A DNA stretch of 59,917 nucleotides, from positions 1 to 59,917 of IMG/VR virus record IMGVR_UViG_3300000176_000011; one strand, 5' to 3'. The notes beneath the pieces are model-generated. The model searched no databases. It was given only the letters and a program-made list of their open reading frames with translations, and was not told the origin of the DNA. The position numbers were made by a program, and so were the translations under genes. Source of the DNA: a virus. This document shows positions 3,883 to 51,567 of this stretch, piece after piece (positions within the stretch are counted from its first letter, which is position 1; the number at the start of each line of letters is the position of its first letter).

Positions 3883-5067
3883 ATGTCAAATTTAGATCCA
3901 ATTATCGACAAAATTATCGTAGCCCGAGTGGGTCTACTACTTCGCCATCCGTTCTTTGGCAACATGGCTACACGTTTAAAAATTGAAGAAGGTTCCGACT
4001 GGATGGGTACTGCCGCTACAGATGGTCGTACTATTTTCTTTAATCGTGAATTTTTTGAACCGCTTACAGTTAAACAGGTTGAATTTGTTATTGCTCACGA
4101 AATCTTGCACAATGTATTCGATCATATGGGACGACGCGAAGGTCGTAACCCACGTATCTTTAACATTGCCGCAGACTATTGTGTAAACGGACAGTTGGTT
4201 CGAGACCGCATCGGTGATCATCAAATTGCAGGTATTAAAATCTTTCACGATGCCAAATACTACGGTATGGGCGCAGAAGAAGTCTATGACAAAATTTATG
4301 ACGAAATGGACGAAGAAGAACTTAATCAATTAGGTCAACTATTAGATGATCACATTGACTGGGGCGACAAAGATGGCACAGGTAAACCCAGTTATACTAA
4401 AGAAGAACTAAAACAAATTCGTGACGAGATCCGCGAAGCTACAATGCAGGCCGCACAAGCCGCAGGTGCAGGTAATACTCCGGCTAGTGTACAACGCATG
4501 ATTAAAGAACTAACCGAGCCTAAGATGAATTGGCGTGAAATACTACGTCAACAAATCCAAAGCACTATTAAGAATGACTACTCATTTATGCGTCCAAATC
4601 GTAAAGGTTGGCACATGAGTGCTATTCTTCCTGGCACACAATTTGAAGACACAATTGATATCTGCGTGGCAATTGACATGAGTGGATCAATTGGCGATGA
4701 ACAAGCCAAAGATTTCTTAGCAGAAATTAAAGGCATTATGCAAGAGTACAAAGACTTTAAAATTAAATTATGGTGTTTTGATACTCGAGTTTACAATGAA
4801 GCCAGTTATGACGGTTACAACATTGACGAGTTTGACTACTACGAGCCAATGGGCGGTGGCGGAACTGAGTTCGATGCCAACTGGATATACATGAAGGAAC
4901 ATGATATTCAACCTAAGAAATTTATCATGTTCACAGACGGTTATCCTTGGGGTAGCTGGGGTGATGAAGATTACTGTGATACAGTATTCATTATTCACGG
5001 CAATGATAAGATTGTTCCTCCTTTTGGAGAATATGCGTATTACGAAGCAATTACGGAAAAAGCATGA
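3883..5067 (+). CDS. Metallopeptidase-like / VWA-domain protein (DUF2201-like)
   Basis: A 394-residue protein with two parts. The N-terminal part carries a zinc-peptidase-like motif HEILH (72-76), followed by NVFDH. The C-terminal part is a VWA-like domain with the metal-site motif DMSGS (265-269), then GGGGTEF and FTDG. This matches the arrangement called putative metallopeptidase plus VWA-like, which is commonly encoded beside MoxR ATPases in bacteria. The start at 3883 has AGGAG 5 nt upstream. An in-frame ATG at 3859 falls at the predicted transcription start and has no ribosome site. The last 4 nt overlap the next gene (ATGA). I infer that it works with the ATPase before it. Whether it cleaves protein is unproven. 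Confidence 0.85.
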   Translation: MSNLDPIIDKIIVARVGLLLRHPFFGNMATRLKIEEGSDWMGTAATDGRTIFFNREFFEPLTVKQVEFVIAHEILHNVFDHMGRREGRNPRIFNIAADYCVNGQLVRDRIGDHQIAGIKIFHDAKYYGMGAEEVYDKIYDEMDEEELNQLGQLLDDHIDWGDKDGTGKPSYTKEELKQIRDEIREATMQAAQAAGAGNTPASVQRMIKELTEPKMNWREILRQQIQSTIKNDYSFMRPNRKGWHMSAILPGTQFEDTIDICVAIDMSGSIGDEQAKDFLAEIKGIMQEYKDFKIKLWCFDTRVYNEASYDGYNIDEFDYYEPMGGGGTEFDANWIYMKEHDIQPKKFIMFTDGYPWGSWGDEDYCDTVFIIHGNDKIVPPFGEYAYYEAITEKA

Positions 5068-5351
5068 GCTTAAAGAATGGCAAGCCCAATCCTCTAAATT
5101 ATTTTGACTTAAGGAGGGTTGAGTTTGCCTGCCCTCATTTTAAATATACTACTTTAGACAAATACAATCCTAACATAGTCAAATCCATCGATGCTTGGAT
5201 TAAGAAGAATTTAAATAATAGATACTATGTAGGACAAGGGATAGCCCTAGACAATACCAAAACTATAGTATATATTACACGTATAGGGTTTGAAAGTGAA
5301 AAGGAATTAAGTTTTTTCACAATTGCCTGCCCACATTTGCAGACGAGATAA
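5064..5351 (+). CDS. Small hypothetical protein
   Basis: A 95-residue protein coupled to the VWA gene by an ATGA overlap, so it probably belongs to the same transcript. It has two CPH motifs (ACPHFKY near the start and ACPHLQTR at the end), which could bind a metal or may be chance. I do not recognise the family. Its coupling to the ATPase/VWA pair makes a role in the same process possible but untested. Confidence 0.65.
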   Translation: MSLKNGKPNPLNYFDLRRVEFACPHFKYTTLDKYNPNIVKSIDAWIKKNLNNRYYVGQGIALDNTKTIVYITRIGFESEKELSFFTIACPHLQTR

Positions 5352-5384
5352 TTATATACGTACAAATCATATTAAGGAGATACC

Positions 5385-5642
5385 ATGACAGATACAGTAC
5401 AAAATCCAGCAACACCAGAACAAGCATCTACAGAGTTAACTATTAATGACCTAAATGCAATGAAAGTAATCATTGATATTGCTAGTTCACGTGGCGCTTT
5501 TAAACCAAACGAAATGGTAGCAGTTGGCCAAACATATACTAAACTAACAACATTTTTAGAAACTGTAGCCGCACAACAAGCCGCACAACCACAACAGCCA
5601 GCCGCTCCAACAGCACCAGCGACAGCACCAACAGGAGCTTAA
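5385..5642 (+). CDS. Small conserved-type protein with Ala/Pro tail
   Basis: An 85-residue protein with AAGGAG upstream. The middle (LTINDLNAMKVIIDIASSRG then AFKPNEMVAVGQTYTKL) resembles a small protein of unknown role found in marine T4-like phages. The tail is a low-complexity Ala/Gln/Pro stretch that also contains the ribosome site (AGGAG) of the next gene. It contains no Cys. A small helical adaptor is the most that can be suggested. Confidence 0.7.
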   Translation: MTDTVQNPATPEQASTELTINDLNAMKVIIDIASSRGAFKPNEMVAVGQTYTKLTTFLETVAAQQAAQPQQPAAPTAPATAPTGA

Positions 5643-5643
5643 T

Positions 5644-6270
5644 ATGGCCCAAGAACTCAAACACATAGGCCGTGTTAAAGCTACTAATAAAAAATGTGTT
5701 GTAGCTTATCGTACACTGCCTGGCGATGCATATAGCTGTTTAATTGTTCCAACAGAGAACATGCCAGACATCTATCATGACGCTCTTATTAATCTAGTAG
5801 AAAGTGGTTCAGGTCAAAGCTCTTATGAGCTTGCTGAAGCATTAGATCGCACTCAATTTCCAGATGGTTCACGTATGTTACCATGGTTGCATGCAAACAA
5901 TCGTTTGATTAAGGCACCTACTAATGCTATCGAAGTAACCCCAACAGTTCAAACTTCGATCTTGTTATCTGAACTTAATCAGATGATTGCAGAACAGCGT
6001 GGCGTCTCAGTAGACCAATTGGCTTTACAAGAAAGTCCAGAAAAAGAAATTGATAAAGCCACTGCAACACCACTTGATAATTCAGTGATTGAAACTAAAA
6101 AAGTTGGCAAAGTAGAGTCTTCGATAGTTCCTGAAGTTCAGCCTGTTACTTTTGACAACCCAGAATCAGAAGCCAAATGGTATCGCAGTCAAGCTGACAA
6201 ACTTGCCAAACAAGCCGCTGAAATGCGTCGTAAAGCAGAGGATCTGGTTCCGACCAAGAAGAAAGTATAG
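5644..6270 (+). CDS. Conserved-type hypothetical protein
   Basis: A 208-residue protein one base after its neighbour, with the ribosome site inside that neighbour. The first 90 residues form a compact domain (HIGRVKATNKKCVVAYRTLP) like uncharacterised proteins of marine T4-like phages. The rest is a charged linker and a C-terminal helix rich in Lys, Ala and Glu, likely a coiled coil. No enzyme motif is seen. Its stop overlaps the GTG start of the next gene as TAGTG. Confidence 0.75.
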   Translation: MAQELKHIGRVKATNKKCVVAYRTLPGDAYSCLIVPTENMPDIYHDALINLVESGSGQSSYELAEALDRTQFPDGSRMLPWLHANNRLIKAPTNAIEVTPTVQTSILLSELNQMIAEQRGVSVDQLALQESPEKEIDKATATPLDNSVIETKKVGKVESSIVPEVQPVTFDNPESEAKWYRSQADKLAKQAAEMRRKAEDLVPTKKKV

Positions 6271-6590
6271 TGACTAAAACGGGAAGAATTCTTCCCAAGG
6301 ATGTCATAGAGCATTGGCCAGAAGTATTCGGTGAAGTACATTTAAATGTGTTACCGCTTAGGTATCTCCATACCGTTTTGGTTAATTTTAAAGATGGCAA
6401 GGCTTGGGAAATACGCATCACTGCAAAAACTAAACGCAATGGCTGGCCAGCCTTTGAAAAGAACCTCAGCGAAATATTTAGAACCTATGAAGATCGAATA
6501 GATAACATAGATTTTAAATTAGACTCTGAACGTGTACGCAAGGATATAGAAGCAAGTACACAAAAATTTTTAAAGAAAAAGAAGTTATAA
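6270..6590 (+). CDS. Small conserved-type protein, GTG start
   Basis: A 106-residue protein starting with GTG, overlapping the upstream stop codon by one base. The segment RILPKDVIEHWPEVF followed by a basic C-terminus recalls a small protein carried by marine T4-like phages. The end is very Lys-rich (FLKKKKL), which suggests nucleic-acid contact. Transcription is probably shared with thyX, which begins 3 nt after its stop. Confidence 0.7.
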   Translation: MTKTGRILPKDVIEHWPEVFGEVHLNVLPLRYLHTVLVNFKDGKAWEIRITAKTKRNGWPAFEKNLSEIFRTYEDRIDNIDFKLDSERVRKDIEASTQKFLKKKKL

Positions 6591-6593
6591 ATA

Positions 6594-7283
6594 ATGAATG
6601 TTAGATTACTTAGTTTCAGCCAACCAACTGAAGAATTTGCAAAATTGGGAATTGATGACGCCCAAGAGCTCATTGCCTATTGCGCCCGTGTGTCCAATCC
6701 TAGCAACCAACTTAACACCGAGACATCAGAAAAACTTATACGATACCTTATCAAACACAAGCACTGGAGTCCGCTCGAAATGGTCTCCGCTTGTATCGAA
6801 ATTACCACAACTAGAGACATTGCCAGACAAATCCTTAGACACAGAAGCTTCAGCTTCCAAGAGTTCAGTCAGCGATATGCTGACCCTACTCGAGACTTGT
6901 CGTTTGTATTGCGAGATGCTAGACGACAAGACACCAAAAATAGACAAAACAGTATAGAACTAGATGTCCATGGCAACGATGAAGATCGATTCCTAGCTTA
7001 CCAATGGGAACGTATGCAAGAACTAGTTATTAAACAATCAAGAGAAGCATACGATTGGGCGATTGAAAAAGGTATTGCTAAAGAACAAGCCCGTGCTGTA
7101 TTACCAGAGGGTTTGATCGAAAGCCGTTTGTACATGAATGGCACACTGCGTAGTTGGATACACTACTGTGAGTTAAGATCAAACAATGGAACACAAAAAG
7201 AGCATATGGAAATTGCGTTAGCCGTTGCTAAAGTAATATCCAAAGTATTTCCTATAATGGGTGACGTTTGTAGTGATTTGTAA
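6594..7283 (+). CDS. thyX: Flavin-dependent thymidylate synthase ThyX
   Basis: A 229-residue ThyX. It converts dUMP to dTMP with FAD, NADPH and methylene-tetrahydrofolate, and supplies thymidine for phage replication. The signature RHRX7S is present (R82 H83 R84 ... S92), as are SPLEMV (59-64) and LRSNNGTQKEH (194-204) of the substrate-binding end. The length is normal. The last 40 codons (from H190) are not the native ones: a second ThyX tail with its own stop lies at 7903-8022, beyond an inserted homing endonuclease gene. The present tail therefore seems to have arrived with that gene. Its final 32 nt overlap the endonuclease gene on the other strand. Confidence 0.95.
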   Translation: MNVRLLSFSQPTEEFAKLGIDDAQELIAYCARVSNPSNQLNTETSEKLIRYLIKHKHWSPLEMVSACIEITTTRDIARQILRHRSFSFQEFSQRYADPTRDLSFVLRDARRQDTKNRQNSIELDVHGNDEDRFLAYQWERMQELVIKQSREAYDWAIEKGIAKEQARAVLPEGLIESRLYMNGTLRSWIHYCELRSNNGTQKEHMEIALAVAKVISKVFPIMGDVCSDL

Positions 7284-7881
7284 GATTATTTATTGATACT
7301 TCTTCTTTACATATTGTGCAAGAACATCGAGATTGTATTCTTCCAATAGCCTGTTGTCGTATTTTTTCTTTAGTAGAATCTGTATGAATACGTCCAAGAT
7401 TATGCTTTTTCCTAACTTCGGATCTTTTCTTTTTTAATATTTTAGCTTCTTCAATACCATGAATTTGCTCATAAGTTTTGCCTCTTCTTACATCTGAAAG
7501 TTTTTTTGATCTTAATTGTTTAAGTTCTTGAGCTTTTTTAGTTCCATATCGTATCTCATATGTTTGCCCCTTTCCTCTGTTTAATTTAGAATAATCAATA
7601 TACTTAGATGTATCGCCACCATCCCCCGATTCTAATTTTAAGTTTGCCCATTTATCAGAATTTATAATATCTAATTTTTCAGATAATGGTATAGAAAAAT
7701 TCTTTAAATCTTCATTATTTGCAAATGTTCCTATTATTTCTGTAGTAACATTATTTCCATGTTTGTTAAGATGAGAAACCCAGCGTGTTCCAGAACCTTT
7801 ATATTTAAAGGGATCTTTTATTGTTTTTCCTAAATATTTTAAACCAGTGATTTTATGTGTTTTTATATATAAGTAAATCAT
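7252..7881 (-). CDS. GIY-YIG homing endonuclease with zinc finger
   Basis: A 209-residue mobile endonuclease. The GIY-YIG domain starts at residue 2 (IYLYIKTHKITGLKYLGKT). Next come two related basic segments (TYEIRYGTKKAQELK, TYEQIHGIEEAKILK), a NUMOD3-like segment GRIHTDSTKEKIRQQAIGR, and a C-terminal CTIC-x11-HYKRH zinc finger. These are DNA-binding modules typical of T4-family homing enzymes. It sits inside the thyX locus on the opposite strand, and its zinc-finger end is coded antisense to the replacement ThyX tail. TATAAATA at 7887-7894 gives a late promoter so close that the message may start at the ATG. It is expected to cut thyX of phages lacking the insert. Confidence 0.85.
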   Translation of the reverse strand: MIYLYIKTHKITGLKYLGKTIKDPFKYKGSGTRWVSHLNKHGNNVTTEIIGTFANNEDLKNFSIPLSEKLDIINSDKWANLKLESGDGGDTSKYIDYSKLNRGKGQTYEIRYGTKKAQELKQLRSKKLSDVRRGKTYEQIHGIEEAKILKKKRSEVRKKHNLGRIHTDSTKEKIRQQAIGRIQSRCSCTICKEEVSINNLTNHYKRHPL

Positions 7882-7886
7882 ACATT

Positions 7887-7894
7887 TATTTATA
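7887..7894 (-). promoter_or_regulatory. Late promoter box TATAAATA before homing gene
   Basis: A perfect T4-type late box on the minus strand, 5 bp from the ATG of the endonuclease. By the spacing used elsewhere in this window, transcription would begin at about 7881, the first base of the start codon. This would make the message leaderless. No ribosome site is visible. Confidence 0.5.
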
Positions 7895-7902
7895 TACTTT
7901 TA

Positions 7903-8022
7903 CATTTTATTGAATTGCGTAGTGCAAACGGTACTCAAAAAGAACATCAAGAAGTTGCTATTGCATGTGCTCAAGCGATAGCTGAGATTTTTCCATTAGC
8001 CACCGATCTTGTAGCCAATTAA
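7903..8022 (+). pseudogene. Displaced native C-terminus of thyX
   Basis: A 39-codon open stretch with its own TAA encodes HFIELRSANGTQKEHQEV and continues to the end of a ThyX. It matches the last 40 residues of the intact thyX above (20 of 39 positions identical by eye). It has no start codon of its own, and the codons before the His no longer look like ThyX. It is therefore a remnant separated from thyX by the homing endonuclease gene. It may be retained because the last 65 bases of it also encode, on the other strand, the C-terminus of the glycosyltransferase at 7958-8650. Confidence 0.85.
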
Positions 8023-8650
8023 AATCATTTATTTTACTCAATGCCTCCTTATTGGAGGTATTTTTTTCCCCGTAATCTCGTCCGGCTAATGCTCCTAGAT
8101 AAGCATAAAATCCGTATTTGGCATCGACATTTAGAGTACACCACGCATCTAATCTACTTAAAGATTCCTCGTCGTTAGTTACTGCCAATTTACAAGATTC
8201 TCTAAAAGCACTGCGCCAGGTATTATAAGGATCTGTATTGAAGGCAGTAATATTACTAATAGTATCCATAGCTCTAAATTTACTACTGATATTAGTTGTC
8301 ATATCTATAGTATCAGTATTCATTTTTAAAGTAAGATTTTTTGGCAGTAATTTAACTCCACCGTACCCATATGATAAATTATTAATGGGATTTAAGCTAC
8401 GCCAGACGTGTACTATATCTAAATCCCATTCAGGAACTTTATAATCAAAATTGAAGTCATTTAATATAACTGCATCGGCATCTACTACCCACAACATTTT
8501 AGTAAATGCTTTACGAGCTGCCGCGATGTGAGCTTGATGTATACCTTCAACTCCATGTACACGTTTTGCTAATGGAAACTTTTCTTTTAAATTATTGAAA
8601 TTTTCGTCAGCATACTTTTCATTATAACTGATAAAGATTATATCATACAT
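7958..8650 (-). CDS. Glycosyltransferase-like protein (GT-A type) 1
   Basis: A 230-residue protein related to its upstream neighbour. Both begin with an IIF(I/L)SY segment and share KRVHGV(E/K)G, then a GT-A type metal/sugar-nucleotide motif, here VVDADA with D57 and D59. No membrane segment is present, so it should be cytosolic. The final residues (WLQDRWLMEK) match the same region of the neighbour (YLTDYWKEKH) although they are coded antisense to the thyX remnant, which shows that this overlap is ancestral. It is the last gene of the operon. It could glycosylate virion proteins, DNA or host surface sugars. The acceptor is unknown. Confidence 0.8.
   Translation of the reverse strand: MYDIIFISYNEKYADENFNNLKEKFPLAKRVHGVEGIHQAHIAAARKAFTKMLWVVDADAVILNDFNFDYKVPEWDLDIVHVWRSLNPINNLSYGYGGVKLLPKNLTLKMNTDTIDMTTNISSKFRAMDTISNITAFNTDPYNTWRSAFRESCKLAVTNDEESLSRLDAWCTLNVDAKYGFYAYLGALAGRDYGEKNTSNKEALSKINDFNWLQDRWLMEKSQLSLEHMQ
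8042..8067 (+). terminator. Intrinsic terminator of the thyX transcription unit
   Basis: A stem TGCCTCC/GGAGGTA with a TTATT loop is followed by seven T residues on the plus strand. It lies 20 nt after the stop codon of the displaced thyX tail, as expected for the original thyX terminator. It is embedded in the coding region of the glycosyltransferase on the other strand. Confidence 0.8.
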
Positions 8651-21785: not shown

Positions 21786-24700
21786 TTAACTCTTATAATC
21801 GCTATACCAGATACCCGGACTAGCTTTTAAGAACTGGGCAATCTTAGTATTGTCGTTTTGAATGTTCAAACTGCTATCCCAAGCAATGCCGTTACGTTTT
21901 ACTACAGTTATTTGAATTCCAGAATTAACTGTGTTAGTTAATCTTAACTGTTTAGAAATACCATCTACTGCAAATTCAGCATCAAACTGTACATCGCCAG
22001 ATGGGCTATATGGAGCTTGATTAACATTGAATAGCTTGTAAGGTTTTTTCTTTAATCTAATTCCACCAGCAAATACTTCTATGTCATTACTTTGTCCGTA
22101 GCCTGCAGGAATACCGCTGGTAAATCCACTAGGATAAGTCCAAAGATCTTTTGATTTAGTTGGAACAAATCCTAGATTTACAATGTGTGTTCCATTAGAA
22201 ATAATTTGTTCTGTTGTAGTGGTTTCAGTGTATGGAATAGTTTCTGTTGGTCCTATATCTTGTACAAACGAACCAGCTCGATGTAAATTATACACACCTG
22301 TACCTAATGTACCTCTACGTAGTTTACTTAAAGTGTTGCCTTGAATAGCAAAATATTCAATTCTTTCTCCGCGAATTTCTATTACACCCGGTAAATTTTT
22401 ACTCGGATTTGGCACATCAAAGTTTGAAGCATCAACTAGGACAATACTAGTATCATTCCAATGCAAATCTTGGGCTAGTGTAGTTTGTTTATTCAAACTT
22501 AATCGTTTAAAATGTACTCGATTTAGCATGTCTTTAAACTGTTGATATGCAATTCCCGTAGTTAATACATTACTGCCAAATGTAATTAATGTAATTTCAT
22601 CTTCAGGATTTGGAGGTACTAACAACTGAATCGATACTTTGTCATCGTTAACTCGGTAGTCAATACTTGGTGTCAATAATGTCGAATTTTTAACTACCCA
22701 AACATAATTGTCATCAATAACTGGTCTATCTAATTTAATCAAACCACTTAAAATTTGTTTGTAATAGTAAAATTCAAATGTATTTGGTGTTAGTACTGCA
22801 TTAGCTGTGACATTAACAGTTGTTCTTTCAATATCTAATACTGAATGATTATACGAACTAATCACTTCCACTGTATGAGTATTATCATAGGCCTGTGTGA
22901 ATGTAATTTGTTGTGTTGAAGGATTATAAAAATAACTCTCATTAGTTGTGATACTGACAAGCAAATTCTTTCCAGTATACTTTGTATAAATTACCTTGCT
23001 AATTTTTATACTAATACCGCCTATGTCTACAGTATAATCTGATCCAAGGGTTAGTTGAACACCGTCGACAAATACTAAAATTTGGTCAATAGCCGCAGTG
23101 TACGGACTTATTTTAGCAGGATCAATTGCATAATTCAGTTTGTTTTTTCCAATAACAAAGTAATTGTTATTCGGTCCTTGCAATATGCTTTGATCTACAC
23201 GAACAATCATATTTGATTCGTTAGGTAAACTTGTACCTATAGGATAATTTAAATTATAAGTTAAACTACCATCTGTTGGGACCAGTTCTGTTTTAGTTAT
23301 TGCAAATGTTTGTTGCTTACCGCCAACAATTATAAAATTAACCAAACTACCAGCATTTGGCGGTATTGGAAATCTAATACCAACAGCATTAGAAAACTCG
23401 TAAGTACTATCAGTTTTAAATAGCACTGGAGATGTTATTACACCATCAATATAAACTAACGATGTAAATGATGATAACCAAGGTGCTTTAGTTATAAATT
23501 CTGTTGTGACACCATCGCCTATAAAATAATCAAGGTCTAATATGTTAGATCCATTAAATCCAATATTAAAAATACTAATAACATCGCCCTTTGCTGGTAC
23601 AGAATTTAATCTAATAGTACGAGTTCTGTAATCAATTGAGTAATCGTCTGAGTAAGTTTTTACTAAGTTATTAACTTTAACTACAACCGCTCTTTGACTA
23701 TTAGGTTGCTGTGTCATAACATAAGATTGTGCTATACCATCAGCAATAAAATTATCTACTTTTATATTTGCAGATCCAGTAATTGGTCTATCATAAACTT
23801 TGATAGAAACTGAATCAACTACTTGCCCTGGAACAACTTCTTCAGGCGCAGGACTAGAAGTAGGTGTTACAAATCCGTCACCATCGACGATAATATCATC
23901 AGCTAACAATCCTGTTGCAGTAGTATATGCCCAATCACCACCAGTTAATGCAGTGTCATAATCTGTTTCTGCTGTCGGGATTGATCCATCGCTGGTTGTT
24001 TTTCTTAAGATAAACTCGTCGCCTTCATTAACTGTATATGTATTTGGTATAGTAAATGTTGCAGATTCACCGTCAGCAACAAATGTCGGTACAATAGCAT
24101 TTTTGTTTTTTTGGTCAGGAGTACCGTATGCAGGGTCATCTAAACGTATTGGATTTATTTTACCAGTTATATTCAATATACTACCTTGAGTAACAGGCGC
24201 AGTAAGTAATAGTGTTCCGTTAGCATTGATAGTTAAGTCATTTGGTTGCACTAAAGTTCTAGTGAACTTTATATCAGAACCATAAGGTATATCTGCATAA
24301 ACTATGGTACTAATCTTAATAGTTGTACTATTAACAATTTGAATAACTTGAGTATCGTATACAAAAGAATTAGAAGCTGTTGTTGAAACTAAGTCTCCAA
24401 CATGTATGTTTGCAGTACTAGTCAAGGTTAGTTGATTGCTACCTGCTTGATTAAATGTAAATGTCAATGTTCCGCTTGGAGTACTGTCAGATACTTTGTC
24501 AATAATAACCGTAGTAGAATCTGGAATTGAAACAACATGTCTTTCAGTAGCAAACCCTACTCCAAATATGCCCATACCAATTACAATACCAGCAGTATTT
24601 GTTACTTTTAATGTAGTATCAAAACTGCCACTAGAATTATAAGTTGTTTGTATACCTGATGATGAAACTGTTGTAATAGTTGTTGCTACAGGACTAATTG

Positions 24701-27700
24701 CTAACGGGTTATAATTATACTCGACCTGAGTGCCATTTGATACGTAAGAATCAGTATTATTTTTAATATGATAAATGTTAATTTCTGTACCAACATCTGG
24801 CGTATATGGCAGAGTAAAACTCCATGTGTTTGCATGTACTGTTACAAAATAATCGTCAAATGCAGTATTTGGGCTCCATTTATCTGAAAAATAAGGAGAA
24901 GATCCCCAACCTTTAGACACATCGAATCCAAGACCGTCGACTATAACTCCTCCATAGTCGATACCTGTCATTAACTGTGCTAGATCTTTACCAAGATCGC
25001 CTTCGCCTGGATTGTAAAAATAATTAATTCTATCAGCGGCATTCAAAATTGCATCGTTGATATAGTATGTAATAACTATTGTCGAACCAGTTGCAGGGGC
25101 ATTGCCTACAACAAAAGATAACAATCCAGAGTATTGTGTATAACCATTAGTTGTCGAAGTAATAGTTGTTAAATTATACAATTCTCTTAGTACTGGAATA
25201 CCGTTAACAACCACAGTTGAACGCCCTATAGTGATATCCGGACTCCATTTTAATTTAAATTGTAAGGCACTGCCTGTACCGCTAAATGTTTCTACTTGTT
25301 GTAACTGTGTGATATAATTTGTCTGTGTAATTCTATCAAATTTAATTCCAATTCTAGTAGAACGTATTACGCTATTTCCAATAATTGCAGATGCAGTCGC
25401 GGCTACACCTGTGCTAGAAATACCACCATCAATTACTACCTTAGGAGCAGACAAATATCCACTACCCGGAGTTAATAACACTATTCGATTAACTGTTCCA
25501 TTGGTAAAAAATGCTCTTGCAGTTGCACCGTTACCAGAATCGCTGATAAATCTTACAGTAGGTTCTGTCAAATATCCAGATCCTCCGCTAGTTAAAACTA
25601 ACTCGGTGACTTGGAATCCAACATTGTCAAGCCAGAATTTCCAAGGATAATTCTGAATATGATAGTCATCTGCTTGAATTTTTCCATCCTTAACTGTAGT
25701 ATTAACTAAGACAATTTTATTATTTTCATATATTGGCTGTAGGTCAAAGTCAGTAACCGGCATCTCAGCAGTATCCATACTTTCGTAATTACTAACGTAT
25801 TCTCTAATTTTAGTTCTATAAGGCTTAACTTCTGCTACATAGTCTTCAAAATTTGACAAATTGTCAACAGGATAATTTACAGGCTGACTTAACGCACCAA
25901 CATTATGTTGAGCTTTGACAAAACTAGTTTTGAAAATCCAGTCAACATAAACTTGTTCGCTAAACACATATCTTATACTATTAAAGAATAAATTTAAATA
26001 TTCTTGTTTAAGGTTACTAATAAAGATATTTGTCTTAATTGTTTTCAAAATAATTCTTAGTTCTGTAGAAGCTACTATGTCAAATACATCGCCATCAAAA
26101 ATACTTGAATCATATCCAACATTTGTTCCTACAAATTCATATAATGAACTGTCTAATTGAATTGTTCCGTTTTGTATGCCAATTACGCTATAAGAAAGTG
26201 TCCAATCAACACTAGTTGAATCGGCATATTTTTCTAATAATAACCAACCTCCAGCATTTGCTGTTCTAATTTTTACAGTATTACCGATAGATGGCTCGAT
26301 TGTGTTTAAATCTGCAAATGTATTAACAACATAGTCAGCTAATGTAAATTGATTGTAACCTGTTGCATACCAATCTACATAAGTCCAATATTTTCTAACA
26401 TCATAACTTTGTGTTAGTGTTCTTGACCACAATTTATAAACTGTATCATATGTATAGATACTCCAGTTACCTTCTGCTTGACCATCACTATGTACTAGTA
26501 CACTATAACTTCTAACTTGACAAATTGTTTCTCCGGCAATATATCCTTCACCAGCCGACACAACAGTTGCTCCGATGATTTGTCCTTGAGAATTTATTAT
26601 GGATTTTACTACGGCTCCTTGACCAGGTCCTACTATTGTTATATAAGGTGCAACTACGTAACCTTTTCCTGAAGATACAATCTTTATTCCTGTAACTTTT
26701 CCGTTAGCATCAACTTCAGGTGTAATCTCAGGCATCACAAACGAAGTTGTGTTGGTATATTTTAATTCTGCATCAGTATCTAACACAGTATCATACAATC
26801 CTTGTATAATATTTGGTTCGGCATCGTACTGATTTAACTTACTTAGGTCGCTATTTTCAACAATTCTATTTTTTAATAAAATTTGATTCGTATATTCTAT
26901 AAATTCTTTTAGTGCTTCAAATCTGTTTACAAACATGCCTTGGCGCGGTCTATTTTCAACACCATATCGAATTTTAACTGGTAACAAAGGATCTGGAACC
27001 AAACGACCTGATTCATCTGCACCGCATAAACTATCAATCCATTTTTGTTCAATTACACTCGGAAGTGTAATTGTAGGATCGTTGCTGATAATTTTCCACT
27101 GACTATGTACATTTTGGTCTGTTTTATCAATAGTCCAATATTCAACAGACAGTACTACGTTACTGCCATTTAAAAATGGTTTTATATTTGCCAAACTAAA
27201 TGTGTTTAATCCAGTTAGTGCTAGGTACGCATAGTCTTGGCCACGTGGATTTGCAATTAAATTAGACACATCTTGGGCAGACATGTTTCTTCCGGGTACT
27301 TGTGGTACAATCTTTTTATTCTTAACCCAGAAATAGTAAGTATTTTTAAATGCTTTACTTATTTTGTCATAATTTTGTCTAGTAGAATAAACACTATCAC
27401 CATATAGACTTGTTCCGCTGATGCCCACTGCTATCCCTGCCACAGTATCTGCTTGTGCATCCCATTGACTAGGTTTAAGATTTGAACTTACCCATTCGTA
27501 GATATCTACACTAGCTCCGACGGCTAGTGTATTCCAATTGCTATTTCTATAAATGATATCTTGGTCATAAGCGTTGACAAACTTTATAGTAGTAAGATTC
27601 CACCACAATGTACCAACTTGTTGTTTTGACCAAGCATTTGAACTATCAACAACTACCGCAGACGTGCCTGTAGAATAAACTGCTGGATCATAGAAAGTTT

Positions 27701-30700
27701 TATACTTAATTTCTTCTTCTGCTGGTCCAGGAATTTTTCCTTGTAAAGGATCAATCACATCAAGATATTTGATAAGATTTCCTGTAGCTCTATTGTATAA
27801 AAATGCCTTTTTAACTTTACTAATATCAGGTATATCAATTCTTTTATTGGTCACAGTCCAAGAATAAGTACCAGGCATTTTAGAATAATTGTAAATTTTT
27901 CCTGATTTTAAATTTCTATCTTGAGCGTAAGGTGCACCAACAAATATTTGATTTGCACCTACGGCAAATCCAACACCGTAACCGTCGCTAACTGTGTTTG
28001 AAGTTGGCAAAGTTTCACTGAACACCCACTTGGTTGCATACATATCATAAACGTCTACACGACCTGTATTAACTTGTGTTGTTAAGAATTGTGTTGAATC
28101 TTTATCAAATGTTGTAATACCGTTTGTATTAAATGTTGTTGTGGTAGTTGTATCGCCTGCCTGGCTATAAACAACCAATGTTTCATAGTCGTTCATAAAG
28201 GCAATTTTATTACCAAAACGTCCTTGTACTTCAGGATAGTGGTCAACCAATTCTTGATAAAAACTATAACTGTTGGAAGTATACTTGTAAACTCCTACTA
28301 CGCCTTGTTGATTAACTTTAGTAGTAGATTTAATATCATCAGAAACAGCAATATAAGTTCCACTGTCAGAAATAGCAATACTCTTACCAAAATTATTATC
28401 AATTCCAACTAATGTTTGGGAAGGAGTTGTGGAAAATGCTGTTCCAGTTTTCTTATAAACAAAAATCTTACCTACAGTAACTCCGCCAGCATTAGAAATT
28501 AATAATGTATTTCCGTCGCCGCTTAATGAAACTGCACTTCCAAAATTTTCTCCGTTTACTGATCCTGTGAATATTTCACTTGAATCATAAACAAACCGTG
28601 TTGTTACAAAACTTAAAACGCCCAAAGGTGTTGAATTAGGACTTCCGGATAAAGCAAGAGTAGTTTCATCTATAATTGACGTTACATATTGATTAGATGT
28701 AAACCCAGTTCCGACAACATACATACCTGGCCTAATGCCCAATGTAGAAGTTACAGAAATAACAGCATTGTGACTTCCTACAGGATTATAAGATGTTGAC
28801 ACATTAGTTATTGTAGTGTATTTAAATTTATAAACTATACCTTTATTATTGTTGTAGCCAATTGCACCAACATACAAGACATTATTTCCAAAGGTTAATG
28901 TTGAACCAAACTGTTCATTTGCTGTTGGAGTTGGACTCAGTATTGTATCGACTAAAATGTATTCATTATTTGCATCTTTTTTGTATAAACTAATAACACC
29001 GTGTTTAGATAAATTATTATTTGTTCCAGTTATATCTACTGGAACATATGGCAACGCTGTCCAAGAAGTTATACCTGTAACAATTGATGCAACTGTAATG
29101 GTACCAGTATTAATATTATTAACACTATCAATTTTAATTAATAGATCATTTAATACATTGTCGCCACCCAAGGCTGCTCCAGAAATTCTAATATTATCTC
29201 CGACAACATAACCTGAACCACCGTTGTTAACAGAAATAATATAGCCTGATAAGATTGGAGTTACATTGAATGTAGCACCTGACCCAAGTATTATGTTACC
29301 AGGTAAACTAGTATAAGTTCTGTCTGGGGTAATTCCTGACCATGAAATAGTTTGAATACTATCTTGTTGTGGAGGAGTTCCCGTTACTGTAATAGTAATA
29401 TCATTAACTGTGTCAAGTCCACCAACTTGTGATCCTAATATTTTAATTTTATTTCCAACTTTGTATCCTGCTCCACCTGACACAACATTTATTGTATAGG
29501 AAGCTCCAATAACAACAATAGTAAAACGAGCCCCTTGTCCTTGAGTTGATGTAATACCACTAACAGTATATGTGCTCTGTATATTAGAAATTTTTGTAGT
29601 AACATTAGCAATGGTACCAATTGTAGGTTTTGACCCTCCAGTTACTAAACAAGTTATTGAAGTATTGCTGTCAATGGATTGAATTGTTACGTTAGTTGGA
29701 TAATTGCCAAACAAACTGCCAGTTCCATCATTAGCAACAAATGTTCCGTTGACTGCTAATCCAGCAGTATTATCTAGCTGATTAATAGTAACTACCCAAG
29801 GTCCGGTGGCATCCAACAAAACATTTACTGGAGTCACTAGACTTATTGTTCCAAAATTACTGATTTTAGAAACAGTTGGTGCTTGATAGTATATGCCACT
29901 GCTGGATACAATCGCACCGCCTGGATAAGAAGTACCAGCTATGAACGCTGAACCATGCACTACATCTTGTACTAATCGAGTAGCCGCATATCCTGCTAAT
30001 GGGCTTCCAGTAGCTAACCATGTATTGTCATTAGAAATTGCAATTACATTAGCAGATACATTGGGAGAATTTAAATTAACTCCTGGAAAAGTATTTGCAG
30101 ATATAGCTGGGTTGGAAATTGCTTGATGCTTAATCCAAGGTACAAGTATTCCAGATTTTGCATACACTAATGTTTTACCATCAGAGGTACTTATTGCTGA
30201 AATAGTACCAGTATTTGAAACAGCTATAGTTCGGCCATAGGTTAAACCAGCAGATGGAGTGGTGTTTAAAATATTGGCTTGACTATAAGCAGACTCGTAT
30301 GTCCATGTAGCCCAAATTCCGTCATCTGTTTGAATGTTGTCGGTCCAAATTAATTCTTTATTTTTTAATCTACTTGGAGAAATATTGTCTAATAAATCAA
30401 TAGTTGTAGTTCGTTGTGAAATTAAAGTATATACTGTAATACTACTTAAATTAGGAAATGGCTGCACCCACTTAGGCACAGTCGCAGACACTACAAATGA
30501 ATTTAGCGATACTGAAATAATTTTGTAAAAACCATTTATATTTGTAGTTTGTGTTATACCAATATAAGAATTAACAGCAAATGTAACTAATTTTTCTGTA
30601 GTAAACGTCAATGTCTTGGCTGTTGCATCGTAGGCAACACCGACTACAGTAATTCCAATATCTGTAAATCTATACACATTCCAATAAAATGGAGGGGTGT

Positions 30701-33700
30701 CAAATGTACACCAAATGTAACTACCGTTTATAAGTTTACTTGGATCTTGACTGGTAATATCGCTAATATTACCTATAATAATATCGACATCACCTGAATT
30801 AACATGACCTGCATTACGCAACAAAGGTTGATAAGTTGTTGCTATTGGCCAAGGATACGAGTTATAGCCAGTTGGTTTTAGATAAACATCGGTGGGTGTT
30901 TGTTGTATAATAAAAGAATTTATACTAAGATCTTTCTGTTGAACAAGATCATAGCCCTGAGGATTATTTTTTATATCCCCATCATTTAAAATAAATTCAA
31001 TTTGCTGGAACGCTGTACTTGCACCATACTGTCCTACACGCAACGCCCATTCTTCATAAAAAGATAAACTTTCTAGATTATCAGAACTTAGTACATCAAA
31101 CAATTTGTTAAGAACATTTTGTGTTCCTTTTTCACGAATCATTCCTTGATAAAATTTAAATTCGCTAACATCGTCTTGAATAATATTATCTAAATACTGA
31201 CGTTTTTGATAGCCAATTAAATGTTGACCCATAGTTTGTTGCTGTAGGTCAAAACTATCTGTGTCTAAACTGTAAAAATCTTGGAACTGTGTGGCTAAAT
31301 TTGTCCAGTTAGGCAAAATTTGTGGTGTTGGTTTATTAGCCAACTGTGTCCAATCGCTTGCTACAAATGTAGTAGTTCCTGGCAAAAATTTATTTGCACT
31401 ATAGTAATATCCTTGATATACAATAATATCTCCCATATTGTAATCAGTCCATTGTTGCCAAGATTTAACTACAGCTTGGTCAAACACAAAGCCAGGAATA
31501 TCTAAACCGCCATACCAGTCTGGAGTTACATAGGCCGAAACTTTGATTCTTTCTTGTCTATATCCGCTTTCAAGATTATAAATTACGTCATTAAAAATTG
31601 TTGTATTATTAATAATTACAACATGTTCATGCTGAATTAAGTAAAAACTTGCACCATAAATACCGTCAGCTGTTCGGGGACTATAGCTTACTGTATTTTC
31701 ATTTCTATAAGAATCTAAATCAGCTGGTTGAATTGCTGTGCCATCAACTTTAAAAATTTCATATGTGTTAAACAAGTTATTGATATCATCAACCACTGAC
31801 AACGGAGCATTGAAATTAATTTTTCCGGCAGAAGGACTAAGACTGATAACACTACTGCCTACGTTACTTAAACCATCTAATTTAGTATAGTCGTCATAAT
31901 TAAAAACACTGCTGGCAGGTAAATTTCTATTTGCACTATAATAATATCCGTTATATCTTACAATACTTCCATAGCTCACAGGCTGGCTTGGCAACCAATC
32001 GCTCCATTTGTCCTGACCTGTACTCCAATTTTGTGTAGTCCAGAATAAAAATTCTTTGGCACTAGTTTCCCAATTTGACACTTGACCGAGATTAGTATTG
32101 AATTCATTAAATTCAAATCCTTGATCCTTTAACCATTCTCCGTAGCCCTGTAAGAAATCAACTACTGCTTGTATTGTAGTAAATTCAGTTCCGTAAGGAA
32201 CTACTAGTTCAGATGTTCTATCCCATACTTTTCTTAAAACGGCATTAACACCGCCATTAACTGGCAACGTTGGTAATACAGCAAAATAAGAATTGTCAAA
32301 TGTAGCACTAGTATTTGTTGCAGTTGTTCTAAAATAAGAACCATTATATTTTACAATTGAGCCAATAGTATATTGTTGGCCTGCTGTCCAGGTAGTAAAA
32401 CTTTCTGATATTCCACCTACGTTAATGCTAGTACCAGATTGAATATATGGGTAATATTTAAAATATGGCTGTGTTTGACTATAACCTGATATTTGATATC
32501 CACCAGTTTGCTTTGTAATAATTACACCGCTATAGGTTAATTTGTTTACAGGATTTGAACTATTTAAAATAACTGAATAATCTTCTGCTGGTATGAATAC
32601 ACTACCTGTGCTACTTGGTGTCTTTGAATCTAATAATAGATTAAATTGATTTTTATTAGTAAATGCACCTAGTCTATAACTTAATTGAAAATTTATGGTT
32701 GCTAGATCGGTGGCATAGGTATTATAAGATTTTATATTATTACTAAAAATATAGTTTAAAATAAGATCTACAACGTAATTAATAATACCCGCAGTTTGTA
32801 CACGAGTATTACTAGAATAGATGCTAGGTAATACTATATCTGTAGGACGAATTCTTAAACCAGTATCTTTATAAATCAATTGTCCTGCGAGATTTCGTTG
32901 AATACGACTTCTGTCCAATAACAACCCTAGTGTTTTAGAAGGTGTTAATAATAGTGAAGTTATCAATACACTAAATGAATAATGACTGCTACGTCTCCAT
33001 GCGGCTTCAACTGGTGCAACATCTCCAAATACAAAATCAAGATTACTACTTGGTGTTATAGTTCCTCTAGATAGGCCAGATTGTACAGGGCTTAATAAAT
33101 TACCTTGTTCATCCACTGGAAGATTAGATATTAAAAATGGTTTAGCAAATTTTGATAGTTTAACCGGAGGAGTATTGGGATTTCTAACAATACCATCAGT
33201 AATATCTTGCCACATTACAAGATTATCACTAGTATATGGAGCTGGACCATACACGCTAGTCCACCATGTAGGTTCTATATTAAACCCTAACATCTCCCAA
33301 GGACAAATATGTGGTCTATCAGTGTCTAATAACCAACGATATACTCCTCTCCAATAGCCTGGTAAACTAGTATTGTCAGGTGCTGAATTGTAACTATAGT
33401 TGTAGGTAAAAGAATTATTAATATCGTAATTAATTGATTTAGTAAAATCTATTCCAACAAGTTTTGCCCATTTATAAAAACTTGGAGCAAGAACTGTATT
33501 AAATTCTTCTAGACTATAAACATTAGTTCTATTATAACTTGGTATGATATTAGTAATATCGAAAATTGTTGGATCATATTCTACTTTAATATTATTAAAA
33601 ATTCGTTTTTCTAATTCTAAAATCAGTTGATCTCTGTAATCACCATAGGCTAATATTTGACTACCATCATGACCTTGGATCATTAATTGACCTTCAGGAA

Positions 33701-46930: not shown

Positions 46931-47587
46931 ATGAAATATAAAATTGATTATTATGGATACGTTTACGAGTGGACAAATACTAAGAATGAGAAAAAGTATA
47001 TTGGATCTCATTACGGATCTGTGGATGATTATTATATAGGATCTGGTAAGGCATTTAAGCCAGCATACACTCGAAATCCAGATCTTTTTAAGATGAATGT
47101 ATTAGAATATCTTATTGAAGACGATAAAAAACTACTGTTAAAAAAAGAGCAAGAATGGTTGGACCGTATTCCCAATATTAGAGAAAATAAAACTTATTAT
47201 AATCTAAATAATTATTCTTTAGGCGGGTCGAGCCATATAACAAGAAAACATATTGAAAAAAGATCAAATACATTAAAAGAAAAACACGCAAAATTAGGTC
47301 TGAGCGAGGCGGAACGATTATCCTACAAAACTAAAATTGAAACAAGACTAACAAGAATCGCGTCCGTAGGGTTTACAAAAAAAGAAAAAGAACAACATGC
47401 AAAATACGGATTCCAGGTACAAGTAACTACACCCAACGGCGAGATTAAAATATTTGATTCATGCGGGCAAGCAACAAGAGCATTAGGAATAGATGTACAA
47501 TACGGATTAAAAGTTTGCATCAAAAATCTTGATTTTCGAGGTTATAAGATAGTAAAATTAAGAGATCCATTAGTGGATTGTAGATAA
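46931..47587 (+). CDS. GIY-YIG homing endonuclease between gp55 and gp47
   Basis: A 218-residue GIY-YIG enzyme. The nuclease motif is GYVYEWTNTKNEKKYIGSHYG (split here for length: GYVYEW ... KYIGSHYG), followed by DDYYIGSGKAF and a conserved Glu region. A basic middle and a helix-turn-helix-like tail (KIFDSCGQATRALGID, NUMOD1-like) should provide DNA recognition. It has its own late promoter and sits between conserved genes with no disruption of either, typical of free-standing T4-family homing genes. Its AT content and codon use look like those of the other homing gene. It probably targets gp55 or gp47 of related phages. Confidence 0.85.
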   Translation: MKYKIDYYGYVYEWTNTKNEKKYIGSHYGSVDDYYIGSGKAFKPAYTRNPDLFKMNVLEYLIEDDKKLLLKKEQEWLDRIPNIRENKTYYNLNNYSLGGSSHITRKHIEKRSNTLKEKHAKLGLSEAERLSYKTKIETRLTRIASVGFTKKEKEQHAKYGFQVQVTTPNGEIKIFDSCGQATRALGIDVQYGLKVCIKNLDFRGYKIVKLRDPLVDCR

Positions 47588-50661: not shown

Positions 50662-51087
50662 ATGTCTTGGTACTATAACAATGAAATCGTTGAATCGCTT
50701 CCGGAAGAATGTGTTGGGTTTGTATATTTGATAACAAACATGACTTCTGGGCGTATGTACATAGGCAAAAAATTAGCAAAATTCTCAAAAACTACTTACA
50801 AAACAGTAAAACTCAAGAACGGCACTAAGAAGAAAAAGAAAATCCGTAGCAAAATTGATTCAGACTGGCGGGACTATTACGGTAGTTCGCCTGAATTAAC
50901 CAAGGATGTTACGCAGTTAGGTACAGAAAATTTTCGCAGAGAAATACTTTTCTATTGTAAATCAAAGGCAGAGTGTAGTTATATCGAAGCTCGTGAACAG
51001 TTTTCACGCAGAGTTCTTGAATCCGATCTCTATTATAATGGTCATATTCAAGTGCGTGTACATGGTTCACATATACTCAAGTCCTAA
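50662..51087 (+). CDS. GIY-YIG-fold nuclease-like protein
   Basis: A 141-residue protein with a GIY-YIG domain: GFVYLITNMTSGRMYIGKK near residue 19, YYGSSPEL, an invariant-type Arg in NFRREILF and a Glu in YIEAREQF. A Lys-rich loop (KNGTKKKKKIRSK) lies inside the domain. It has no separate DNA-recognition tail. I recall similar short proteins as standing genes of marine T4-like phages rather than mobile ones. It could process DNA junctions or flaps with gp46/47. The stop at 51085 opens the long unassigned gap. Confidence 0.75.
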   Translation: MSWYYNNEIVESLPEECVGFVYLITNMTSGRMYIGKKLAKFSKTTYKTVKLKNGTKKKKKIRSKIDSDWRDYYGSSPELTKDVTQLGTENFRREILFYCKSKAECSYIEAREQFSRRVLESDLYYNGHIQVRVHGSHILKS

Positions 51088-51567
51088 TAATTCAGGCCGT
51101 TTAATCACCAAATAAGCCCGCACTGGCGTTGTTAAAGTGCCCGAAATCCGTTCTGATGTGTGACGGTAAGGTAGTTCTGCTTGGTGACAGAGTTATACAT
51201 TACTATCCTTTACAGGACGATGATCAGATACGCCGCTAACTGGTTTAATGTGTAAGTAGTTGAGAATAAGGCTAAAAGAGGGGTAGTAGCCCCACGGTTT
51301 AATATGTGTTAGCGTATGTATTAAGCCCGCCGTCATATAAAGACATAGCTCGTGGTACCGGATGACCGCCACTGTAATGCTATAACGCTAAGGTGATATT
51401 GTGCAACTCAGATAATGTCCATTTCGCTTTGCCCGCCAGGGCAAAGTGTGACTGAACAATCTAGATAATATCTTAACGCTTCGCGTTTTAATTAAAAGAT
51501 TAACTACTCCTTAATAGTTCGAGCTCAAGCGAAGAACAGAAGAACGCAAGTTCTTCTTCCAGTACTA
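51088..51567 (+). other. Gene-free gap rich in inverted repeats (possible structured RNA or decayed gene)
   Basis: No convincing gene. Inverted repeats seen: CGCTAAC (51234-51240)/GTTAGCG (51308-51314); GGGG/CCCC (51280-51293); GTGG..CGG/CCG..CCAC (51352-51372); GACAT (51342-51346)/ATGTC (51415-51419); CTTTGCCC/GGGCAAAG (51427-51446); AACGC/GCGTT (51475-51487); AGAAGAAC/GTTCTTCT with a GCAA loop (51538-51557). GGTTTAAT and TAAGCCCGC each occur twice. One frame from the ATG at 51156 reads MCDGKVVLLGDRVIHYYPLQ and stops after 27 codons. Later parts of the same frame look protein-like between stops, so decay of a gene is an alternative. Confidence 0.4.
51538..51557 (+). other. Perfect hairpin with GCAA tetraloop
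   Basis: AGAAGAAC and GTTCTTCT pair over 8 bp around a GCAA (GNRA-type) loop. It ends 10 nt before the late box of the next gene. There is no U-run, so it is more likely an RNA 3' end structure or part of a larger fold than an intrinsic terminator. Confidence 0.5.

Follow-up and report, generated by a model that had tools for sequence, protein, structure and literature searches.

A probable homing cassette that supplies a replacement 3′ end to the thyX gene of a T4-like phage

The thyX locus of a T4-like phage (IMG/VR record IMGVR_UViG_3300000176_000011, positions 1 to 59,917, the whole of which is referred to here as the window) very likely (probability roughly 0.9) carries a mobile homing cassette, composed of a thyX 3′ end and a GIY-YIG-like homing endonuclease gene (HEG), at thyX codon 189/190. 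Sequence comparison establishes that one thyX tail is foreign while the native tail persists as a remnant, that the cassette moves as a block and sits at a fixed codon, that tail and HEG are inherited together, that the arrangement recurs, and that chimeric alleles lacking the HEG exist.

The thyX reading frame (6594-7283, plus strand) specifies 229 amino acids and matches Pfam Thy1 (E=8e-45). Its body, codons 1-188 (6594-7157, plus strand), which carries the Thy1 match, is native to the window phage, the nearest sequences being the insert-free genes of L001-L007 (85-87% protein identity). Codons 189-229 and the stop (7158-7283, plus strand) constitute the in-frame tail carried by the cassette, which is identical in L081 and agrees with that of L158 at 35 of 42 positions; its foreign character is seen in its grouping with other cassette tails and in an identity that tracks that of the HEG. 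A second tail at 7903-8022 (plus strand) begins with CAT (H190) at 7903, runs to the original stop at 8022 and has no start codon of its own. It matches the uninterrupted thyX of L001-L007 and L100, and the match extends into the DNA past the stop, where several insert-free relatives share AATCATTTAT..GCCTC.. with the window. In L001-L007 the uninterrupted protein reads ..NGTLRSW[I/V]HFIELRS[A/S]NGTQKEHQEVAIACA.., the body being joined directly to the downstream-type tail of the window, whereas the present fused tail reads ..WIHYCELRSNNGTQKEHMEIALAVAKVISKVFPIMGDVCSDL. The remnant at 7903-8022 is therefore the native tail, and the tail now fused to the body is foreign.

An earlier note, prepared without database searches, had described a diverged second ThyX tail beyond the minus-strand GIY-YIG gene, identical at 20 of 39 positions, and this held (20 of 40 residues, 50%, by tblastn). 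It had further proposed that the endonuclease arrived with a foreign, in-frame thyX 3′ end, which the insert-free relatives and the grouping of the tails support. Relatives joining the body to the remnant were found (L001-L007, with the post-stop DNA shared as well), and when the tails were compared separately the present one grouped with those of other endonuclease-carrying thyX genes. Insert-free relatives bearing the present tail, which would have refuted the proposal, were not found as such; the nearest are L100 and L153, with chimeric tails, and L158, with a related one. A thyX-tail HMM scores the fused and displaced copies at approximately 79 bits each. Among 276 thyX-tail loci, this HMM detects a second tail in no contigs other than those of the window, L081, L180, L184 and L185, so that its presence is not due to chance.

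The last 65 nt of the displaced tail are overlapped by the 3′ end of a neighbouring convergent gene from the ORF list (7958-8650, minus strand). Cassette-free L100 keeps the same neighbour arrangement (at 1364-2056), and the overlap may conceivably help to preserve the remnant DNA. Elsewhere on the minus strand of the window, a single ORF of 4961 codons occupies 21786-36671.

The endonuclease gene (7252-7881, minus strand; 209 aa) is convergent with thyX and overlaps its last 32 nt, a detail absent from the earlier note; endonuclease and fused tail are therefore physically joined. The product matches PHROG 314 (homing endonuclease; E=1.6e-10), and a Pfam search returned no match to the GIY-YIG model. 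The AlphaFold model, based upon 43 sequences, has a pLDDT of 85 overall and of 93-97 in the N-terminal domain. Its best Foldseek matches in the PDB are to the I-TevI catalytic domain (1mk0, probability 1.00, E 0.04; 1ln0_B, probability 0.99), while the C-terminus, a putative zinc finger, gave weak matches to zinc fingers in the structure search. Residues Y16, G18, G29, H37, N80 and E84 are invariant in 43 endonuclease relatives. The enzyme is thus predicted, on the strength of the model, to possess a GIY-YIG catalytic fold of the I-TevI type; the catalytic Arg is unassigned, and cleavage and homing are inferred. A putative T4-type late promoter −10 element for this gene, TATAAATA, lies at 7887-7894 (minus strand) and is supported by the recurrence of its motif among cassettes: [TC]ATAAATA occurs no more than 45 nt from the HEG start in 12 of the 13 listed thyX cassettes, where 0.003 occurrences are expected per 45 nt. 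T4 late promoters have a similar motif, and a late sigma factor gene is present in the window; late expression of the endonuclease is inferred from sequence alone.

The insertion site comprises the conserved RSW-[I/V]-H codons of thyX (7149-7163, plus strand). The left boundary falls within 7147-7159, since L081 differs through 7146 and the window first departs from the native consensus, built from 69 native sites, at 7160; native sequence picks up again at 7903, to the right of the cassette. Fused and native sites differ by 7.7 mismatches per 36 nt in the left half-site (8.7 between native sites) and by 14.7 mismatches per 30 nt in the right half-site (7.0 between native sites). Being alike on the left and unlike on the right, they place the junction at W188-I189. 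The right-hand divergence bears upon the suggestion, made in the earlier note, that the replaced tail may give immunity, which remains an inference.

At least nine distinct cassette versions, all at this same codon, are present in other phages. Relatives of the endonuclease lie behind thyX in L170/L171, L172, L176/L177/L179, L180, L181/L182, L183, L184, L185 and L216, in every case convergent with it. The HEG overlaps the thyX end by 29-53 nt in complete cassettes; in L170/L171 tail and endonuclease are 640 nt apart, the additional DNA containing small reading frames. The right end of the cassettes begins at thyX codon H190. L180, L184 and L185 keep the whole displaced tail there and the remainder have a stub (e.g. 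HFIELR, HFIELRV or HFNELRA), except L183, where neither tail nor stub was found to the right of the cassette. Stub cassettes retain only about 18-20 nt of right-hand thyX homology, and their right crossover therefore needs another homology. Stub or displaced tail abuts the putative late promoter of the endonuclease. I-TevI represses its own expression through a homing-site-like operator over its late promoter (PMC2988022) and, by analogy, the retained stub might double as an operator, though this is no more than a possibility.

Several other arrangements were observed. The thyX stub of L162, L121, L163 and L034 sits in a near-consensus promoter (TTGACA-18-TATACT; TACAAT in L034) directed toward the next gene, which could be co-option or coincidence. 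L083/L186 and L187 have a related endonuclease on the same strand, directly behind a distant thyX and without a remnant; that of L083 contains an in-frame stop. In Rhizobium phage RHph_N3_13 an HNH-type endonuclease gene precedes thyX, a different arrangement.

Movement of the cassette as a block is evident from L081, a different phage, in which 784 of 785 columns are identical across 7147-7931, the extent of a recent lateral transfer. Identity in the left flank (4261-6593) is 81.6%, and the two remnants have diverged from each other. Their differences lie mostly in third codon positions, indicating that the two lineages were already separate before each received the cassette. The stretch 6861-7146, at 95% identity, is a possible co-conversion tract. 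A second version of the cassette occurs, near-identical, in L162, L121 and L163, three backgrounds with flanks that are mostly 60-80% identical. Chance or an assembly artefact is ruled out by the occurrence of the same cassette in contigs from other metagenomes (L081; L082 at 100% identity).

Across 11 carriers, the Mantel correlation of tail with HEG is 0.80 and that of body with HEG is 0.38; the partial values are 0.76 for tail and HEG given the body, and −0.03 for body and HEG given the tail. Because pairs of related carriers lack independence, the values should be read as a pattern and not as a strict probability. The sequences nonetheless show that the tail is co-inherited with the endonuclease and not with the thyX body, the two ends of the gene having discordant histories. 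In L180 the nearest neighbours of the fused tail are cassette tails and those of the displaced tail are native tails; with a tail of only about 41 codons, tree resolution is limited.

Two alleles, L100 and L153, have chimeric tails and no endonuclease gene. L100, the thyX body of which is identical to that of the window at 184 of 188 positions, carries 155 nt exactly as in the fused-tail region of the window, across the site, followed by native sequence; L153 carries 72 such nt across the site and switches to native at AAAGAGCAT. The native target is removed in both. We consider these tails probably to represent a loss or resistance state of the cassette; they could have arisen by recombination of one tail copy with the other or through aborted homing. 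L158 has a related full tail, not identical to that of the window, without the HEG, and may be a donor-type gene or a cassette after loss of the nuclease.

We envisage that, during mixed infection, the endonuclease, made late, would cut a cassette-free thyX near the conserved RSW-IHF codons. Repair would draw on the cassette-bearing genome, with homology supplied on the left by the thyX body and on the right by the displaced tail or by a short stub of that tail. The recipient would thereby acquire both endonuclease and foreign tail, its thyX remaining complete and in frame, and its old tail would be shoved past the cassette. Because the new tail differs from the cut site, thyX would no longer be a good target. 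Cleavage, the repair route, immunity, late expression and the activity of the hybrid ThyX are all inferred, there being no biochemical data.

A simpler history would have a free-standing HEG downstream of a donor thyX, with ordinary co-conversion bringing in the donor end; there would then be no mobile unit, and the remnant would reflect one imprecise join. T4 Seg and Mob enzymes do home in this manner, with co-conversion (PMC2988022), and L158 has a related tail without the HEG. However, many cassettes have this codon and this H190 stub in common, near-identical blocks are found in several backgrounds, displaced ends also occur at other genes, and the tail-HEG Mantel correlations speak against it; we regard this account as very improbable.

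Most known gene-interrupting homing endonucleases reside in introns or inteins, and from this usual home one might suppose that thyX is interrupted by a group I intron or intein bearing the endonuclease, the downstream tail being the true one after splicing. This is practically excluded, since the upstream ORF already has a complete ThyX tail and stop. A group I intron, which the earlier note had also discounted, is rejected on that ground and for want of any Rfam family match at E<=1 in 6550-8150; an intein is rejected because the endonuclease gene lies on the strand opposite thyX. It could be argued, from the mere 50% identity of the fused and downstream tails, that an unrelated second thyX once lay beside the intact one and that the downstream fragment is what is left of it. 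Yet the fragment starts exactly at the codon where the body stops and matches the native tail and downstream DNA of insert-free relatives, and L180, L184 and L185 repeat the arrangement. The presence in those relatives of a single thyX with the remnant-type tail refutes this alternative, which the earlier note had named as a refuting case, and leaves it next to no support.

The homing cassette most resembles the WHO elements of Torulaspora and Lachancea yeasts (Coughlan et al. 2020; PMC7282813), a better parallel than the integrases rebuilding the 3′ end of their target with which it had been compared in the earlier note. In both, the endonuclease gene and a foreign host-gene 3′ end form one mobile unit, each integration leaves the host gene with two histories by swapping its 3′ end, the old one being pushed downstream, and the nuclease has a zinc-finger domain (putative in the cassette). 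The features of the WHO type, a third structural class, are met here: an HEG beside a foreign in-frame 3′ end, a displaced old end and discordant histories. WHO proteins, however, are intein-derived (LAGLIDADG type) and occur at yeast FBA1 in tandem clusters, whereas the cassette is single-copy and phage-borne, encodes a GIY-YIG-like nuclease whose gene overlaps the swapped tail, and is found at thyX and several other genes, with related cassettes swapping 5′ ends. With a GIY-YIG-like enzyme, a thyX target and one endonuclease gene beside thyX in the window, it does not meet the definition of the WHO family proper. It very likely works like a WHO element without belonging to that family, the nuclease family and host being different; allele-specific cleavage and resistance are inferred.

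Fungal mitochondrial mORFs with C-terminal duplications (Allomyces atp6; Glomus atp6, atp9, cox2 and nad3; PMC3630166) likewise combine an endonuclease ORF with an in-phase foreign C-terminal part, the native C-terminal part being left past the ORF, and in one case (atp9) the enzyme is of the GIY-YIG family. They are mitochondrial, whereas the cassette resides in phages and has an opposite-strand HEG, a putative T4-type late promoter and HEG-free chimeric alleles. The free-standing Seg and Mob endonucleases of T4 and gene-splitting insertions such as Aeh1 mobE in nrdA (PMC2988022) are also phage GIY-YIG or HNH enzymes near nucleotide-metabolism genes, some inside coding sequence, with late promoters; they are encoded between genes or divide a gene into two polypeptides, whereas the cassette keeps its gene whole through the replacement end. 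A free-standing HEG lies between genes and leaves coding sequence unaltered, which is not true of an insertion inside thyX at codon 189/190. I-TevI of the T4 td intron shares a GIY-YIG catalytic fold, zinc finger, thymidylate synthase gene target and late promoter with what is predicted here, but is intron-encoded and targets the ThyA-type td, whereas the cassette is intron-free and targets ThyX.

No tail replacement is described in the relevant sections of the T4 endonuclease review (PMC2988022), and a phage HEG survey (PMC10448857) cites WHO with no such phage case in its relevant sections. No phage precedent for an end-swapping cassette was found in the literature searched, mostly without subscription journals, and priority is unproven. 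The cassette would extend to bacteriophages a homing strategy of yeasts and fungal mitochondria, there based on another nuclease family and directed at several genes, and suggests that a selfish element can occupy an essential gene (thyX, thymidine synthesis) without an intron or intein. Its three natural states (empty, occupied and chimeric scar) make gain, loss and resistance testable in fast phage crosses. Caution is also warranted with phage marker-gene trees, which may blend two histories inside one gene.

Displaced gene ends were sought in 151 sequence contexts drawn from the endonuclease clade. Tail swaps were seen in L213 and L489 (metallophosphoesterase genes), L223 (SLOG family), L409 (nucleotidase-like) and L412/L420 (SegE-like), and head swaps in L226, L487 and L488 (TnsA-like/head-completion genes) and L422 (a gene of unknown function). 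The matches in L487 and L488 are short and weaker, and the contigs of the collection are partly redundant. In the cultured Vibrio phage VB_VaC_SRILMA (L562, 2384-4074), CDS0202 joins a displaced 37-codon 5′ end, in frame, to a GIY-YIG endonuclease; the intact head-tail adaptor gene, CDS0203, comes next and has a different start (63% identity over 41 residues). CDS0202 is annotated "head-tail adaptor" although it is an endonuclease with a displaced gene start, illustrating how annotations can mislead. No convincing displaced ends were found in the regions of Vibrio phage D486, Synechococcus phage S-SRM01 and a second place in VB_VaC_SRILMA, or at L566, the sole bacterial-genome relative of the endonuclease. 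It is likely, from sequence layout without insert-free comparison, that the same clade exhibits the end-swap layout at several other phage genes. A bolder reading, towards which the balance tips only slightly, is that end-swapping homing elements form a general, unrecognised class in tailed phages: the GIY-YIG clade would repeatedly enter coding sequence near gene ends, bringing a replacement end, with HEG-free chimeric alleles as the resistant outcome and the stub possibly an operator. If so, selfish elements turn over the ends of core phage genes.

The window contains two more GIY-YIG genes (46931-47587 and 50662-51087), one NUMOD1-like and one SegE-like, of which one lies between the late sigma factor and SbcD-like genes and the other follows the next large gene; neither showed displaced gene ends around it. 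A Polynucleobacter-1 RNA (RF01718, 73 bits) is situated at 51115-51255, immediately after the SegE-like gene, and might be a clue to the host range or to an origin of this RNA family in phages.
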